Source: Nitrospirae bacterium CG02_land_8_20_14_3_00_41_53 (GTDB lineage: Bacteria > Nitrospirota > Thermodesulfovibrionia > Thermodesulfovibrionales > SM23-35). From it: DNA of 32,404 bases. Where the stretch lies: positions 1 to 32,404 of the forward strand of contig PEUB01000084.1 in NCBI GenBank assembly GCA_002780895.1. The letters run 5' to 3'. The translations under genes were made by a program, and so were the position numbers. Under the pieces are notes generated by a model, which saw only the letters and a program-made list of their open reading frames with translations, searched no databases and was not told the origin of the DNA. Shown in pieces: positions 5,797 to 12,135 of this stretch (within the stretch, counting starts at the first letter, position 1; each line of letters begins with the position of its first letter).

Positions 5797-6330
5797 TTAG
5801 TGGTGAGGGCTCTTACCAAAAAACTCTATTGCCTTTTTGACCTTCTCTAAGTCAACTCTGGTGTTAAGGCATGGTCCGAATGGACGTTCGTTTGTTATTC
5901 CCAATATTGGAAGTGGATATGTATCAACTATTCCGCTGCTCAGGTCGTTTTCACATGCAACGGCAACTACCGCCTCTGGTTTTACCTCATTCACAATCCT
6001 CCTTGCAAGAGACCCCCCTGTTGCAACAAAAAGGTTTAAATGATTTTCGTCGGCAATCTGGATCAGGTCTTTAATCTCACATCTGCCGCATCCTTTACAG
6101 TTATAGATATTATATGTAAGCCTGATAGTGCATTCGTCTATCTGGAGGCAGTGCGGCAATAGGAGCAGTATCTTTTTTGTCTTAGACCTTTCTCTTTTAA
6201 CAAGTTTATTATTCAGGTTAATAATTAACCTCTGATAGGCCTCCTTTTTGTTTTTCGCGAAAGAGCCCGCGAGCATAAGTAAAGGATATAAAATTTTGAC
6301 AGTAAGACCTCTAATCCATCTGCGGCTCAT
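5797..6330 (-). CDS. DUF116 domain protein
   Basis: This small, cysteine-rich protein matches the DUF116 family, which often lies beside fmt. A hydrophobic segment at about residues 11-24 is followed by PHCLQIDEC, then CKGCGRC near residue 80, ACEND and GPCLNTRVD. The cysteine pattern suggests metal or Fe-S binding, but the function is unknown. The ORF track starts one codon earlier at a TTG (6333). The ATG at 6330 is preferred, with AAGGAG about nine bases upstream. The start lies within the end of fmt, an overlap of 20 nt, so the two are translationally coupled. From the ATG the protein is 177 residues. Confidence 0.87.
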   Translation of the reverse strand: MSRRWIRGLTVKILYPLLMLAGSFAKNKKEAYQRLIINLNNKLVKRERSKTKKILLLLPHCLQIDECTIRLTYNIYNCKGCGRCEIKDLIQIADENHLNLFVATGGSLARRIVNEVKPEAVVAVACENDLSSGIVDTYPLPILGITNERPFGPCLNTRVDLEKVKKAIEFFGKSPHH

Positions 6331-7243
6331 CAAAAAAGGCTCCTTCTTTTAATTGTCTTCCCTGGAGGAAGGCTTTAGCAAGCATTGGTATTTTACCCTC
6401 TGGCTGAAGTTCAATTATCGAGATTAATCCTCTACCAGTGCCGACGGTAAGTTCTTTGCCTGCTTTCTCTACCCTGCGAGGCATACCAGAGCCTTCAAGC
6501 ACCTTTACCTTGGTAATTTTAATCCTTTCTTTATTTAAATAACAATAGGCACATGGCCATGGATACATACCACGGACAAAGTTGAATATCTCTGATGCGG
6601 TTTTTGACCAGTTAAGTTTTCCGTCCTCTTTTTTGAGAGGAGGAGCATAACTTGTAGCCCCTTTCTGAGGGATTGGCTTAATAGAGTCATCTTTTATGCC
6701 TTTTATAGTCTTAATCAATAAAGATGCACCTATCTCTGCAAGTCTCTTACTAAGGGTCTCTGCATTATCATCAGAAGATATTTCTGTCTCTTCCTGTAAC
6801 AGGATATCACCTGTATCAAGCCCTTCATCCATAAGCATCGTAGTTATACCTGTCTTCTTTTCACCATTAATTATTGCCCACTGGATTGGAGCTGCTCCCC
6901 TATATTTCGGTAGCAGCGAGGCATGTACATTTATACAGCCATATAAAGGAAGCCTGAGGATTTGTACAGGCAATATCTTTCCATATGCAACTACAACAAT
7001 TATTTCAGGCATTATTTTAGAAAGTCCGTTTAGAAATAAAGAGTCTTTTATATTAACTGGGTGTAAAACCTTGATTTCTCTATCAATAGCAAGTTCTTTA
7101 ACTGGTGAAGGGGAAGATACACGACCTCTTCCTTTTCTTTTGTCAGGCTGTGTGACAACTGCAATGACCTCTTCCCCTGATTGAAGAAGTGCAGTGAGTG
7201 ATGGAACAGCAAATGATGGTGTACCGAAGAATACTATATGCAT
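6311..7243 (-). CDS. fmt: Methionyl-tRNA formyltransferase
   Basis: Fmt formylates the initiator Met-tRNA using 10-formyltetrahydrofolate, so that translation starts with formylmethionine. The N-terminus MHIVFFGTPSFA is characteristic. The formyltransferase active-site residues are visible as N105, H107 (INVHASLLPKYRG) and D143 (DEGLDTGDIL). The C-terminal OB-like tRNA-binding domain begins near residue 205. Its length of 310 residues is normal. AGGAAAG lies about five bases before the ATG. def, which removes the formyl group, lies upstream on the same strand across a repeat-containing gap. fmt appears to head the long operon running down to nadA. Confidence 0.97.
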   Translation of the reverse strand: MHIVFFGTPSFAVPSLTALLQSGEEVIAVVTQPDKRKGRGRVSSPSPVKELAIDREIKVLHPVNIKDSLFLNGLSKIMPEIIVVVAYGKILPVQILRLPLYGCINVHASLLPKYRGAAPIQWAIINGEKKTGITTMLMDEGLDTGDILLQEETEISSDDNAETLSKRLAEIGASLLIKTIKGIKDDSIKPIPQKGATSYAPPLKKEDGKLNWSKTASEIFNFVRGMYPWPCAYCYLNKERIKITKVKVLEGSGMPRRVEKAGKELTVGTGRGLISIIELQPEGKIPMLAKAFLQGRQLKEGAFFDEPQMD

Positions 7244-7291
7244 GTAAACTTTCCTAACTTGCCCTTATTATGGATTTATGTCAAATGATAT

Positions 7292-7415
7292 TATACATAG
7301 CGACAAAACTTCATTCGTCATTGCGAGCGAAGCGAAGCAATCTCTCTTTAAGTAATTGAGATTGCCACGTCGCTCCGCTCCTCGCAATGACAGACGATTT
7401 AAGTCGTTGTGTATA
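7292..7415. repeat. Large imperfect inverted repeat in the def-fmt intergenic gap
   Basis: The 241-nt gap between def and fmt holds an imperfect palindrome. The left arm begins CGTCATTGCGAG at 7316. The right arm returns as CTCGCAATGACA near 7381-7392, with GCAATCTC and GAGATTGC closer to the centre. A weaker match extends outward (AGCGACAAAACTT on the left, AAGTCGTTGT on the right). The arms are purine/pyrimidine-biased and more GC-rich than the surroundings. The CATTGCGAGCGAAGCGAAGCAATCT core is a type of palindromic repeat I recognise from many bacterial genomes. No gene is encoded, and the rest of the gap is AT-rich with nothing else recognisable. Confidence 0.85.
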
Positions 7416-7484
7416 TTTGGATATTGTAATTTGATTATTGTTATTTTAGCCTAATCCACATATTCCAATATTTCGTCAAGGCCA

Positions 7485-8003
7485 TCATCTGCCGCTTTTC
7501 ATCTCCTTTACGAACTTTTTGTACCTTCTCTTAAAAAATTCTCTTTTAATGGGGCTCATCCTATCTATAATAAGAAGTCCGTCGAGGTGGTCTATTTCAT
7601 GCTGGAGTGCCCTGGCAAGAAGACCTGTACCTTCTATCTCCACAGGCTTACCTTCTCTATTAAGCCCCCTAGCATAGACCCTCTCAGCCCTTTTTATATT
7701 TGTCATATACCCAGGAATGCTCAGACATCCCTCTTCAGCCTCAACTGTGCCTTCTTTTTCAATAATCAAGGGATTTATCAAGGCTATAAGTGGTTTCTTG
7801 TCTTCTTTCAAACTTACATCTATTACACATAATCTCTTCGGAATACCCACCTGATTAGCTGCAAGCCCTACACCTCTTGCAGAATACATTGTCTCTATCA
7901 TATCATCTATAAGATGCTGAATATGGGCGTCTATATTGTTTATAAAAGCAGCCTTTTGTTTTAGAATCTTTTCTGGATATTTTTTTATCTCGAGTACGGC
8001 CAT
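7485..8003 (-). CDS. def: Peptide deformylase
   Basis: Def removes the N-formyl group from nascent proteins and uses a metal, usually Fe2+. All three family motifs are present: GVGLAANQ (residues 44-51), EGCLS with metal ligand C93, and QHEIDH with ligands H135 and H139 and catalytic E136. At 172 residues the length is normal. The ATG at 8003 has no Shine-Dalgarno sequence. Instead a TATAAT lies only five bases upstream, so a leaderless message is possible. It is divergent from thrS and precedes fmt on the same strand. Confidence 0.97.
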   Translation of the reverse strand: MAVLEIKKYPEKILKQKAAFINNIDAHIQHLIDDMIETMYSARGVGLAANQVGIPKRLCVIDVSLKEDKKPLIALINPLIIEKEGTVEAEEGCLSIPGYMTNIKRAERVYARGLNREGKPVEIEGTGLLARALQHEIDHLDGLLIIDRMSPIKREFFKRRYKKFVKEMKSGR

Positions 8004-8051: not shown

Positions 8052-8081
8052 TTGAAGTATAAAAATAAAATTGTGTATTAT
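8052..8081 (+). promoter_or_regulatory. Candidate thrS promoter
   Basis: TTGAAG at 8052-8057 and TATTAT at 8076-8081 are separated by 18 bases in the AT-rich def-thrS divergent gap. The predicted transcription start near 8088 would leave a leader of about 32 bases containing the AGGAGGT Shine-Dalgarno block. Confidence 0.5.
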
Positions 8082-8106
8082 AAAGGCTATCTGTACAATT
8101 TTTTTC

Positions 8107-8113
8107 AGGAGGT
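8107..8113 (+). promoter_or_regulatory. Shine-Dalgarno that fixes the ATT start of thrS
   Basis: AGGAGGT is followed by six bases and then ATT at 8120. An in-frame TAG occupies 8117-8119. There is no ATG, GTG or TTG in frame between this stop and the conserved HSTSH motif, so this site places the start at ATT. Confidence 0.8.
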
Positions 8114-8119
8114 TTTTAG

Positions 8120-9871
8120 ATTAAGAATATCAATTTTGATTCTAAAGAGGACAGAGAGATTTACAGACACAGCACATCCCACATAATGGCCCATGCTGTG
8201 AAGGAACTCTTTCCTGATGCAAAACTTGCTATAGGCCCTGCTATAGATGAAGGTTTTTATTATGATTTTGATATAGACAGGGCTTTTACACCAGAAGACC
8301 TTTCTTCGATAGAAAAAAAGATGTCAGAGGTAATAAAACAGGACAATCCATTTGTGCGCAAGATTGTTTCAAAAGAAAATGCAATCGAGCTCTTTAAAAA
8401 GAAAGGTGAGGATTATAAGGTCGAACTTCTTGAAGAGATAACAGACGAAGAGGTTTCCCTGTACGAAGAAGGTGGATTTGTAGACCTGTGCAGGGGACCG
8501 CATATTGGCTCTACAGGCCAGGTTTCTGCTTTTAAACTCTTGAGTATTGCAGGTGCATACTGGCGCGGAAATGAGAAGAATAAGATGCTCCAGAGGATTT
8601 ATGGTACAGCCTTTACAGAGGAAAAGGATTTAAAAAAATATCTTGATTATCTTGAGGAGGTTAAGAAGAGGGACCACAGGAGGCTTGGTAAGGAGCTTGA
8701 CCTGTTCAGCATCGGCGAAGAAATAGGGGCTGGACTTATCATCTGGCACCCAAACGGTGCATTGATAAGAAGGGTAATAGAAGATTTCTGGCTAAATGAG
8801 CACTATAAGGCAGGTTACAAAATTCTTTATACACCGCATATAGCTAAACTCAATCTCTGGCAGAAGAGTGGACATCTCGATTTTTACAGGGAGAATATGT
8901 ATTCCCCTATGGAGATTGAAGGGATAGATTACGAGCTTAGGCCTATGAATTGTCCTTTCCATATTCATGTATATAAAACTTCACTAAGGAGTTACAAGAA
9001 CCTTCCAATAAGATATGCTGAGTTAGGAACGGTTTACAGATACGAACGTTCTGGTGTCCTGCACGGCCTTTTACGTGTCAGGGGTTTTACACAGGATGAT
9101 GCACATATATTCTGCAGAGAAGATCAGATAGAGGATGAGATATTGAGAGTCCTTGACTTTACCCTTTTCATATTGAGGATATTTGGTTTTGAGCACTATG
9201 ATGTTTACCTTTCAACGAGGCCTGAAAAATATGTTGGAAGCCTTGAGAACTGGGAAAGGTCAACCAATGCCCTTAAAAGGGCACTTGAGTTAAAAGGGCT
9301 TTCTTATGAGATAGACATAGGTGAGGGTGTTTTTTATGGTCCCAAAATAGACATTAAGGTAAAGGATTCACTTAATAGGCCATGGCAGTGCAGCACAATT
9401 CAGGTTGATTTCAATAACCCGGAAAGGTTCGATATGACTTACAAAGGAAGCGATGGTAAAGAACACAGACCAATAATGATACACAGGGCATTGATGGGCT
9501 CTTTGGAAAGGTTTTTCGGGATACTGATAGAGCATTATGCAGGGGCATTTCCTTTATGGCTTGCACCTGTGCAGGTTGAGGTTCTTACAATCGCAGAGAG
9601 ACATGCGGATTATGCGATTGCATTATCAGAAAAGTTAAGATCAGAGGGAATAAGGACTGAGTTAAATATTGATAACGAAAAGATTGGCTATAAGATCAGG
9701 AGCGCCACTGTAAGAAAGGTACCATTTTTGATTATAACAGGGGATAAAGAAGTTTCAGAAAAAAAGGTTACTGTTAGAAAACGCTCAGGCGAAAACATTG
9801 GCCCATTTACGATAGATGAGTTTATCGAAACAATAAAAAACAAGATAAGTAATAAGAGTTTGAAAATTTGA
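8120..9871 (+). CDS. thrS: Threonyl-tRNA synthetase lacking the TGS domain, ATT start
   Basis: ThrRS charges tRNA-Thr. The ORF track start (8186) cuts into the editing domain. Extending upstream gives 583 residues from an ATT at 8120, directly after an in-frame TAG and six bases past AGGAGGT. The editing domain starts almost at once: HxxxH is H17 and H21 in HSTSHIM, with LCRGPH further on. The class II core shows MNCPFH (zinc Cys), FTQDDAHIFC (motif 2, zinc His) and HRALMGSLERF (zinc His and motif 3). The anticodon domain begins near PLWLAPVQV. The family's usual N-terminal TGS domain of about 60 residues is absent, and no trace of it lies upstream. The infC gene follows after 75 bases. Confidence 0.93.
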   Translation: MKNINFDSKEDREIYRHSTSHIMAHAVKELFPDAKLAIGPAIDEGFYYDFDIDRAFTPEDLSSIEKKMSEVIKQDNPFVRKIVSKENAIELFKKKGEDYKVELLEEITDEEVSLYEEGGFVDLCRGPHIGSTGQVSAFKLLSIAGAYWRGNEKNKMLQRIYGTAFTEEKDLKKYLDYLEEVKKRDHRRLGKELDLFSIGEEIGAGLIIWHPNGALIRRVIEDFWLNEHYKAGYKILYTPHIAKLNLWQKSGHLDFYRENMYSPMEIEGIDYELRPMNCPFHIHVYKTSLRSYKNLPIRYAELGTVYRYERSGVLHGLLRVRGFTQDDAHIFCREDQIEDEILRVLDFTLFILRIFGFEHYDVYLSTRPEKYVGSLENWERSTNALKRALELKGLSYEIDIGEGVFYGPKIDIKVKDSLNRPWQCSTIQVDFNNPERFDMTYKGSDGKEHRPIMIHRALMGSLERFFGILIEHYAGAFPLWLAPVQVEVLTIAERHADYAIALSEKLRSEGIRTELNIDNEKIGYKIRSATVRKVPFLIITGDKEVSEKKVTVRKRSGENIGPFTIDEFIETIKNKISNKSLKI

Positions 9872-9873
9872 AT

Positions 9874-9902
9874 TTAGTTTTTTTTAGTTTTAATTGTATA
9901 AT
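9874..9902 (+). promoter_or_regulatory. Candidate infC promoter
   Basis: A perfect TATAAT at 9897-9902 lies in the thrS-infC gap, with a weak -35 (TTTAGT) 17 bases upstream. It would give infC a leader of about 38 bases and allow expression apart from thrS. The -35 is poor. Confidence 0.35.
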
Positions 9903-9933
9903 TTAAATTACTTTGTATAGATATTTTAGATTC

Positions 9934-9940
9934 AGGAGGT
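9934..9940 (+). promoter_or_regulatory. Shine-Dalgarno that fixes the ATA start of infC
   Basis: AGGAGGT lies six bases before ATA at 9947. This is the same block and spacing as at thrS, and both are preceded by TTC. From the in-frame TAA at 9899 to GTG at 10031 there is no ATG, GTG or TTG in this frame. Confidence 0.8.
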
Positions 9941-9946
9941 GAAAGT

Positions 9947-10441
9947 ATAAGCAAAGATATAAGGGTCAACGAACAGATAAGGGCTAAGGAGGTCAGGCTC
10001 ATAGATGTCGATGGAAAACAGCTCAGTGTTGTGCCAATAGGTGATGCATTAAGGATTGCTGGCGAGAGAGGACTTGATCTTATAGAAGTAGCATCAAATG
10101 TTATTCCACCGGTTTGCAAGATACTCGATTTCGGGAAATACAGGTACCAAATAAGCAAGAGACAGACTCAGAGAAAGACAATTGATATTAAAGAGGTTAA
10201 GATCAGGCCTCAAATAACAGAACATGACCTTGGGCTGAAGGTGAAAAATATCAGACGTTTTCTTGACGATGGTAACAAGGCAAAGGTAACGATGTTTTTT
10301 AAAGGCAGGGAGATTGTCAGACGAGAACTCGGGATGAAGGTATTCGGGAGAATAACCCAGTTACTTACCGGAAAGTTTAACCTTGAACAGGCGCCGAGGC
10401 TTGAAGGTAATCGCATAACAATGGTCATTGCACCAAAATAA
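9947..10441 (+). CDS. infC: Translation initiation factor IF-3, ATA start
   Basis: IF3 binds the 30S subunit, prevents early 50S joining and checks the initiator codon. The ORF track starts at a GTG (10031) deep within the N-terminal domain. The conserved N-terminus (SKDIRVNEQIRAKEVRLID) is encoded upstream in the same frame. The only well-placed start is ATA at 9947, six bases after AGGAGGT, giving 164 residues. In E. coli infC begins with AUU and IF3 represses its own translation through that codon. An AUA here is consistent with the same logic. The C-terminal domain ends LEGNRITMVIAPK. rpmI follows after 34 bases. Confidence 0.95.
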   Translation: MSKDIRVNEQIRAKEVRLIDVDGKQLSVVPIGDALRIAGERGLDLIEVASNVIPPVCKILDFGKYRYQISKRQTQRKTIDIKEVKIRPQITEHDLGLKVKNIRRFLDDGNKAKVTMFFKGREIVRRELGMKVFGRITQLLTGKFNLEQAPRLEGNRITMVIAPK

Positions 10442-11121: not shown

Positions 11122-12135
11122 GTGGAGGATACCCTTTCTCTAAAAAATTCATTTCTAAAAGAATCGAAATCAGCCACATCTGTGGCTAAACTCCAGCAGC
11201 TAAGGATAAAATATTTAGGTAAAAAGGGACTTATTACATCAAAACTCAAGGCTCTTTCCACAATCTCTCCAGAGTTAAGACCAGCATACGGCAAGGTAGT
11301 TAACGAAGTTAAAGTTTATATCGAAGAAGAAATAAACAGGATAGAGTCTCTTCTTAAAAAAGAAGAACATAAAAAGCGTATCGTTTCAGAGGCTGTAGAT
11401 ATAACCCTGCCAGGGAAGTTTACACCATTTGGCAGGGAGCACCCTATCAATAAGGTACTTTCTGAAATAACAGTAATATTTGTTTCAATGGGTTTCGAGG
11501 TTGAAGAAGGCCCTGACGTTGAACTCGACTATTATAATTTTGAGGCATTAAACATGCCGAAGGACCACCCTGCGAGAGAGATGCAGGATACATTTTATAT
11601 TTCTGAAGATATTGTCCTCAGGACTCATACCTCGCCTGTTCAGATAAGGGTTATGGAAAAAAGGAAACCACCTTTAAAGATTATTGCTCCGGGTAAGGTT
11701 TACAGGTGCGATGCAGATATATCTCATACCCCGATGTTCCACCAGGTAGAGGGATTCATGGTTGATACAGATGTTGCCTTCAGCGACCTCAAAGGGCTAC
11801 TTGAATCGTTTATCCACAGTTTTTTTAGTGCTGAGACCCCTGTGAGATTCAGGCCGAGTTTTTTCCCATTTACAGAACCGAGCGCTGAGGTGGATATAGG
11901 GTGTATCTTCTGTTCTGGGAAAGGATGCAGAGTGTGTAAGAACACAGGATGGCTTGAGATATTGGGTGCGGGTATGATAAATCCAAGGGTTTTTGAAATG
12001 GTTGGATATAATCCCGAAATCTATTCGGGATTTGCCTTTGGAATGGGTATAGAGAGGATGGCTATGCTCAAATATTCGATAGATGATATAAGGCTATTCT
12101 TTGAGAACGATATGCGGTTTTTAAAGCAGTTTTAA
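11122..12135 (+). CDS. pheS: Phenylalanyl-tRNA synthetase alpha subunit
   Basis: PheS carries the catalytic class II core of the alpha2beta2 PheRS. The N-terminal coiled coil (residues 1-90, LRIKYLGKKG) precedes the core. RTHTSPVQ, GKVYRCDADISHTPMFHQVEGF (motif 2 region) and GFAFGMGIERMAML (motif 3) are visible. A CSGKGCRVC segment typical of bacterial PheS is near residue 265. The length of 337 residues is normal. The start is GTG at 11122 with only a weak upstream Shine-Dalgarno. The stop overlaps the scpA start by one base (TAATG). pheT is not adjacent; four genes intervene. Confidence 0.96.
   Translation: MEDTLSLKNSFLKESKSATSVAKLQQLRIKYLGKKGLITSKLKALSTISPELRPAYGKVVNEVKVYIEEEINRIESLLKKEEHKKRIVSEAVDITLPGKFTPFGREHPINKVLSEITVIFVSMGFEVEEGPDVELDYYNFEALNMPKDHPAREMQDTFYISEDIVLRTHTSPVQIRVMEKRKPPLKIIAPGKVYRCDADISHTPMFHQVEGFMVDTDVAFSDLKGLLESFIHSFFSAETPVRFRPSFFPFTEPSAEVDIGCIFCSGKGCRVCKNTGWLEILGAGMINPRVFEMVGYNPEIYSGFAFGMGIERMAMLKYSIDDIRLFFENDMRFLKQF
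12010..12032. repeat. Perfect 9-bp inverted repeat inside pheS
   Basis: AATCCCGAA, a 5-nt loop and TTCGGGATT form a perfect palindrome in the region encoding NPEIYSGF, just before motif 3. The encoded residues look conserved for PheS, so this may be chance, or the site may resemble an intergenic palindrome. Confidence 0.5.

Follow-up and report, generated by a model that had tools for sequence, protein, structure and literature searches.

Which codon initiates thrS, the gene of the aminoacyl-tRNA synthetase ThrRS, in the window (the whole stretch of 32,404 nucleotides that was analysed), and what would be gained by a start codon of the AUH type (AUU, AUC or AUA) in an essential gene? The downstream infC, encoding IF3, poses the first question as well; AUH starts of infC are, however, already known, and the novel element is the AUH start on the normally canonical thrS across a whole class. 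No report of an AUU- or other AUH-initiated thrS was found in the literature searched.

Start sites of thrS and infC

Direct reading of the window bore out the assignments of an earlier, sequence-only reading (Table 1): ATT for thrS and ATA for infC, each preceded by the block TTCAGGAGGT and six bases, an in-frame TAG directly against the thrS start, and no possibility of an ATG, GTG or TTG start ahead of conserved residues. Both genes possess an in-frame AUH codon at Shine-Dalgarno (SD) distance and lack a usable AUG, GUG or UUG. The earliest in-frame canonical codon of thrS is ATG 8186 (codon 23), the use of which would remove the HSTSH sequence (residues 17-21); in infC, an in-frame stop is located 16 codons 5' of the ATA with zero canonical codons between, and the next canonical codon downstream is GTG 10031. 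The IF3 sequence aligned over its full length to solved IF3 chains (PDB sequence comparison). ThrRS comprises the Pfam domains tRNA_SAD, tRNA-synt_2b and HGTP_anticodon, and its alignment starts at residue 7, which corresponds to residues 63-71 of the full-length structures 1qf6, 1nyq and 6vu9; the N-terminus of the protein thus coincides with the end of the TGS domain in full-length enzymes. A TGS domain concealed upstream of thrS or in another frame was ruled out (116 nt to def, TAG at -1). As a stop codon confines the start on one side and essential residues confine it on the other, the reading frame supports AUH initiation of thrS, which we regard as nearly certain.

Table 1. Positions of the features discussed; coordinates refer to the window unless a locus (L) is given.
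Feature	Position	Strand	Basis
Promoter-like TTGAAG-18-TATTAT upstream of thrS	8052-8081	+	consensus scan, 9/12 matches; predicted transcript start ~8088
thrS Shine-Dalgarno block TTCAGGAGGT	8104-8113	+	sequence; in relatives, GGAGG(T) with corresponding spacing
thrS spacer TTTTAG (6 bases)	8114-8119	+	sequence
In-frame TAG abutting thrS start	8117-8119	+	sequence; rules out upstream start
thrS start codon ATT	8120-8122	+	sole near-cognate start within reach; AUH in 53/62 class genomes
thrS, ThrRS without N-terminal TGS domain, 583 codons/aa	8120-9871 (incl. stop)	+	Pfam; PDB sequence alignment
infC Shine-Dalgarno block TTCAGGAGGT	9931-9940	+	sequence; pairing extends to AGGAGGTGA
infC spacer GAAAGT (6 bases)	9941-9946	+	sequence
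infC start codon ATA	9947-9949	+	canonical codon absent until GTG 10031; AUH in 61/62 class genomes
infC, IF3, ordinary two-domain protein, 164 codons/aa	9947-10441 (incl. stop)	+	Pfam IF3_N + IF3_C
trpB, G000 contig 18	L098:3111-4355		AGGAGG-N5-ATT; next canonical codon +23; Pfam
DksA/TraR-type zinc-finger gene, G000 contig 11	L101:595-1044	-	GGAGGTG-N4-ATA; next canonical codon +30; Pfam

Shine-Dalgarno strength within the genome

Both SD sequences are strong by the standard of this genome: a score of at least 7 at a canonical start was found for 32 of 651 sampled genes (thrS: 7.0; SD of 7 nt), and a score of at least 9 was reached by 5 of the 651 (infC: 9.0). The TTCAGGAGGT 10-mer occurs at two sites in the window, which are these two SDs (expected 0.08; two copies in 0 of 100 shuffles). 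The identity of the two blocks emphasized by the sequence-only reading is in part coincidence: the thrS genes of relatives have conserved GGAGG(T) and the spacing, not the TTC of the 10-mer. In this one genome, the combination of strong SD and AUH in the absence of a canonical start was modestly more frequent than the same arrangement for other codons with chance SDs, and the pattern GGAGGT-N5-7-ATH revealed no genome-wide enrichment (177 versus 165 for the reversed-pattern control). Since these single-genome statistics are weak, the case for AUH starts rests on cross-genome conservation.

Conservation across class and phylum

For the comparison, both genes were located in 61 genomes that belong to the family or the order, and in a phylum sample; every in-frame start candidate was scored for SD match and spacing, and starts were assigned by rule. 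The best-supported thrS start was AUH in 53 of the 62 genomes of the class (family 15/16, rest of the order 37/44, others of the class 1/2), mostly as ATT, and according to the named records among them the clade of AUH thrS corresponds to the Thermodesulfovibrionales/Thermodesulfovibrionia of the Nitrospirota. Elsewhere in the phylum, AUH was assigned in 2 of 32 genomes (G066 and G088), both calls being weak and probably scoring artefacts; the placeable thrS starts of non-Nitrospirota records from the same search were canonical. By comparison, infC was AUH-initiated in 61 of 62 class genomes (family 17/17, rest of the order 43/44, rest of the class 1/1), nearly always with ATA (58 genomes), and in 27 of 30 genomes of the remaining phylum, mostly with ATC.

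The SD-to-start spacing of the AUH thrS genes was 5-9 in nearly all cases, and in 32 of the 62 class genomes the permitted N-terminal region of thrS was devoid of ATG, GTG and TTG. The check proposed by the sequence-only reading, i.e. whether an ATT-type start and the SD spacing are kept upstream of thrS in relatives, thus came out in its favor, and the outcome that it had named as a sign of a sequencing error or a local mutation, ATG at these positions in related genomes, was not borne out, AUH being the majority state for both genes. Judged from this conservation, the AUH start of thrS is neither a sequencing error nor a local mutation. In one genome (G024) infC starts with TTG and thrS still with AUU; the AUH codons of the two genes are, in consequence, not strictly coupled.

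Codon history and loss of the TGS domain

In a ThrRS tree from which the N-terminal region had been omitted, the two-state distinction of AUH and canonical was explained by 5 changes and the separate states ATT, ATC, ATA and canonical by 19, counts that are approximate as a result of the fast tree and the rule-scored starts. According to this difference, the codon drifts yet remains non-canonical, its third base changing among T, C and A and seldom to G. Where the TGS domain has been kept, as in many genomes of the order, the AUH codon is positioned at the front of this domain (e.g. GGAGGTTTTGAG-ATT-AAG in G029; AGGAGGTAGTAG-ATT with adjoining TAG in G024), whereas in TGS-less genomes it lies directly 5' of the editing domain. 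Retention of the AUH start after an entire domain had disappeared speaks against a passive Ile codon.

ThrRS lacks the TGS domain throughout the family and also in scattered parts of the order and of the phylum (class thrS: L001-L050, L121-L141), and the domain has apparently been lost several times. In one genome (L018, G013), the thrS frame breaks off close to the 3' end and resumes in a different stretch, reflecting a frameshift or an assembly error.

AUH starts unlinked to infC

thrS and infC are same-strand neighbours in 62 of 62 class genomes and in 29 of 30 genomes elsewhere in the phylum. As the thrS genes of the latter have canonical starts despite this adjacency, adjoining an AUH infC is insufficient for an AUH start. 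Two further convincing AUH starts, both distant from infC, were present in the 0.84 Mb of this genome, the window included, that were sampled in stretches (approximately 700 gene-like ORFs), those of trpB and of a DksA/TraR zinc-finger gene (Table 1), and the attribution of the feature to the adjacent gene pair in the sequence-only reading was thus not upheld. For trpB, AUH was found in 13 of the 15 family genomes in which the 5' end was visible, as against 3 of 14 in the remainder of the order, where ATG prevails; the dksA-like gene has AUH only in G000, G011 and G003, and ATG in most relatives. AUH starts have thus been employed more than once in the family, and each lineage seems to hold a small set of AUH-initiated genes.

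Two other candidates were not retained: a hisB-like gene with ATA (L082) was dropped, its ATG six codons on suiting the family start, and a NuoE-like gene with ATT (L120) is ambiguous, a GTG 16 codons downstream being acceptable. The trpB gene contains an in-frame insert (L098:3868-3915) that encodes NPPTPPFSKGGKEGLL and resembles a dispersed repeat; the matches in relatives are shorter by about that length.

Leader of thrS and the operator question

In E. coli, thrS has an AUG start and a long structured leader. The gene in the window differs in both respects, as the leader inferred from the predicted promoter comprises only about 30-55 nt and leads to an AUH codon. The promoter assignment is accompanied by an alignment of TTGAAAT...TGTATTATA upstream of thrS in most family genomes, with the -10 element approximately 42-65 nt before the start. 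Folding of the thrS leader was no better than that of shuffles (z -0.13), and no Rfam match at gathering score was obtained in the window, hence no T-box leader upstream of thrS. The E. coli operator consists of four leader domains, two of which are tRNA-like hairpins that are bound by ThrRS (PMC11088916); the two systems would be alike in that thrS, located 5' of infC, is controlled at the level of translation. Because of the short inferred leader, an operator of the E. coli type is unlikely here, given that the predicted transcript start is correct, in agreement with the suggestion made from the sequence alone that the start-codon feature stands in its place.

Possible function of the AUH start

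IF3 discriminates against AUU, AUC and AUA at two kinetic checkpoints, and likewise against over-extended SDs (PMC4611024); the premise of the sequence-only reading on this point is backed by published biochemistry. In vitro, with a CAU anticodon, the amount of full-length product from AUU drops with rising IF3 (PMC10158994), and in S. aureus, where infC starts with AUA, AUU/AUA genes with extended SDs yielded about 10% of the AUG output, medium-dependent in one case (PMC13009471). From these data and the comparative analysis, IF3-sensitive control at the step of start-codon recognition is proposed as the function of the thrS AUH start, with a probability of roughly 0.55. The strong SD would draw the 30S subunit onto the short, unstructured leader, and recognition in the P site would be slow as a result of the third-base mismatch to the anticodon of fMet-tRNA. 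Rejection of the AUH complexes by IF3 would keep ThrRS synthesis low and let it drop as IF3 increases relative to ribosomes, the same rule as for IF3's own AUA-initiated gene. Control of thrS would thereby be exerted at the start codon where E. coli has a ThrRS-binding operator, and it would be independent of infC adjacency: trpB and, in some species, the dksA-like gene would share the device. Presumably, the level of IF3 in these cells fluctuates widely enough for a regulation of ThrRS, and AUH might serve to keep ThrRS and IF3 in step; the TTG infC next to an AUU thrS in G024 and the mostly weak SDs of thrS genes that reverted to ATG speak against such coordination. A wider, tentative view is that of an IF3 regulon of the Thermodesulfovibrionia, in which IF3, ThrRS and, depending on lineage, TrpB and the DksA-like protein might be AUH-initiated, with their synthesis tracking the balance of free IF3 and ribosomes and replacing the ThrRS operator.

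Alternatively, AUH and strong SD might together set a constant, moderate translation of ThrRS (and TrpB), the IF3 sensitivity being an unavoidable by-product; we regard this as possible, if doubtful. ATG was found as thrS start in five genomes of the order, four of them with a weak SD or none (G046, G038, G026, G025) and one, as an exception, with AGGAGG at spacing 10 (G047), so that the combined strength of codon and SD is mostly similar, as expected if the final expression level alone was selected. A static role would also be consistent with the about 10% output from an S. aureus AUU start, which in cvfC1 was independent of the medium (PMC13009471), and with the unlinked AUH start of trpB, for which an obvious need for IF3 coupling is absent. 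However, AUG with a weak SD would be a simpler route to low output, yet AUH was retained through many codon switches; moreover, the essential ThrRS gene adjoins that of IF3, where coupling would be useful. Improbable in our view is a historical relic, i.e. an ancestral AUH codon that was compensated by the SD and then drifted among AUU, AUC and AUA without codon selection. The tree would fit such a course with one change on the stem and few reversions; however, a single base change would turn any of the states into ATG, and AUH nevertheless persists in 53 of 62 class genomes, it was retained on loss of the TGS domain and its start, and trpB gained AUH separately in the family. Least of all, and despite the fact that rare start codons are often annotation errors in general, do we expect ThrRS to begin elsewhere (by a frameshift, upstream, or downstream at ATG 8186) with SD and ATT being incidental, as a stop equivalent to the TAG abutting the ATT is present in G001, G011, G007, G018 and also the TGS-containing thrS of G024, the 116 nt to the divergent def lack space for a TGS domain, ATG 8186 would delete the HxxxH motif, and SD and spacing are conserved.

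Comparison with known AUH-initiated genes

The infC of the window resembles the AUH infC genes with IF3 autoregulation of E. coli (AUU) and S. aureus (AUA; PMC13009471) in that the IF3 gene itself combines AUH and a strong SD, and shares AUA with the latter. It is thus an ordinary member of this group; the difference is a thrS with the same start type across a class. E. coli pcnB and S. aureus cvfC1, ccpN and citZ, likewise AUU/AUA-initiated, are comparable insofar as their expression is limited by the start codon; extended SD motifs are present in the S. aureus genes, and the AUH codons of cvfC1 and ccpN are conserved. In contrast to these genes for regulators, small proteins and a metabolic enzyme, the IF3-sensitive start proposed here would act on an aminoacyl-tRNA synthetase and is conserved at class rank. 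Non-canonical starts such as those of infC and pcnB have mostly been viewed as isolated curiosities; a class-wide and apparently selected AUH start on an essential synthetase beside infC would offer a natural system for IF3 as a regulator of other genes. For genome annotation, gene callers restricted to ATG, GTG and TTG would cut ThrRS after the HxxxH editing motif and assign wrong starts to trpB and infC in the affected genomes.

Further observations at the locus

pheS (11122), with a GGAGG within its first codons (11122-11140), was considered as a third rare start and rejected as ordinary, the relatives having GTG or ATG without SD; the gene begins at GTG, an upstream SD is absent here as in relatives, and its translation is probably coupled to that of rplT. 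On the other side, fmt and def, the products of which formylate and deformylate the initiator Met, are located on the minus strand at 6311-8003 of the window, divergent beside thrS-infC, so that several initiation functions are gathered at this locus.
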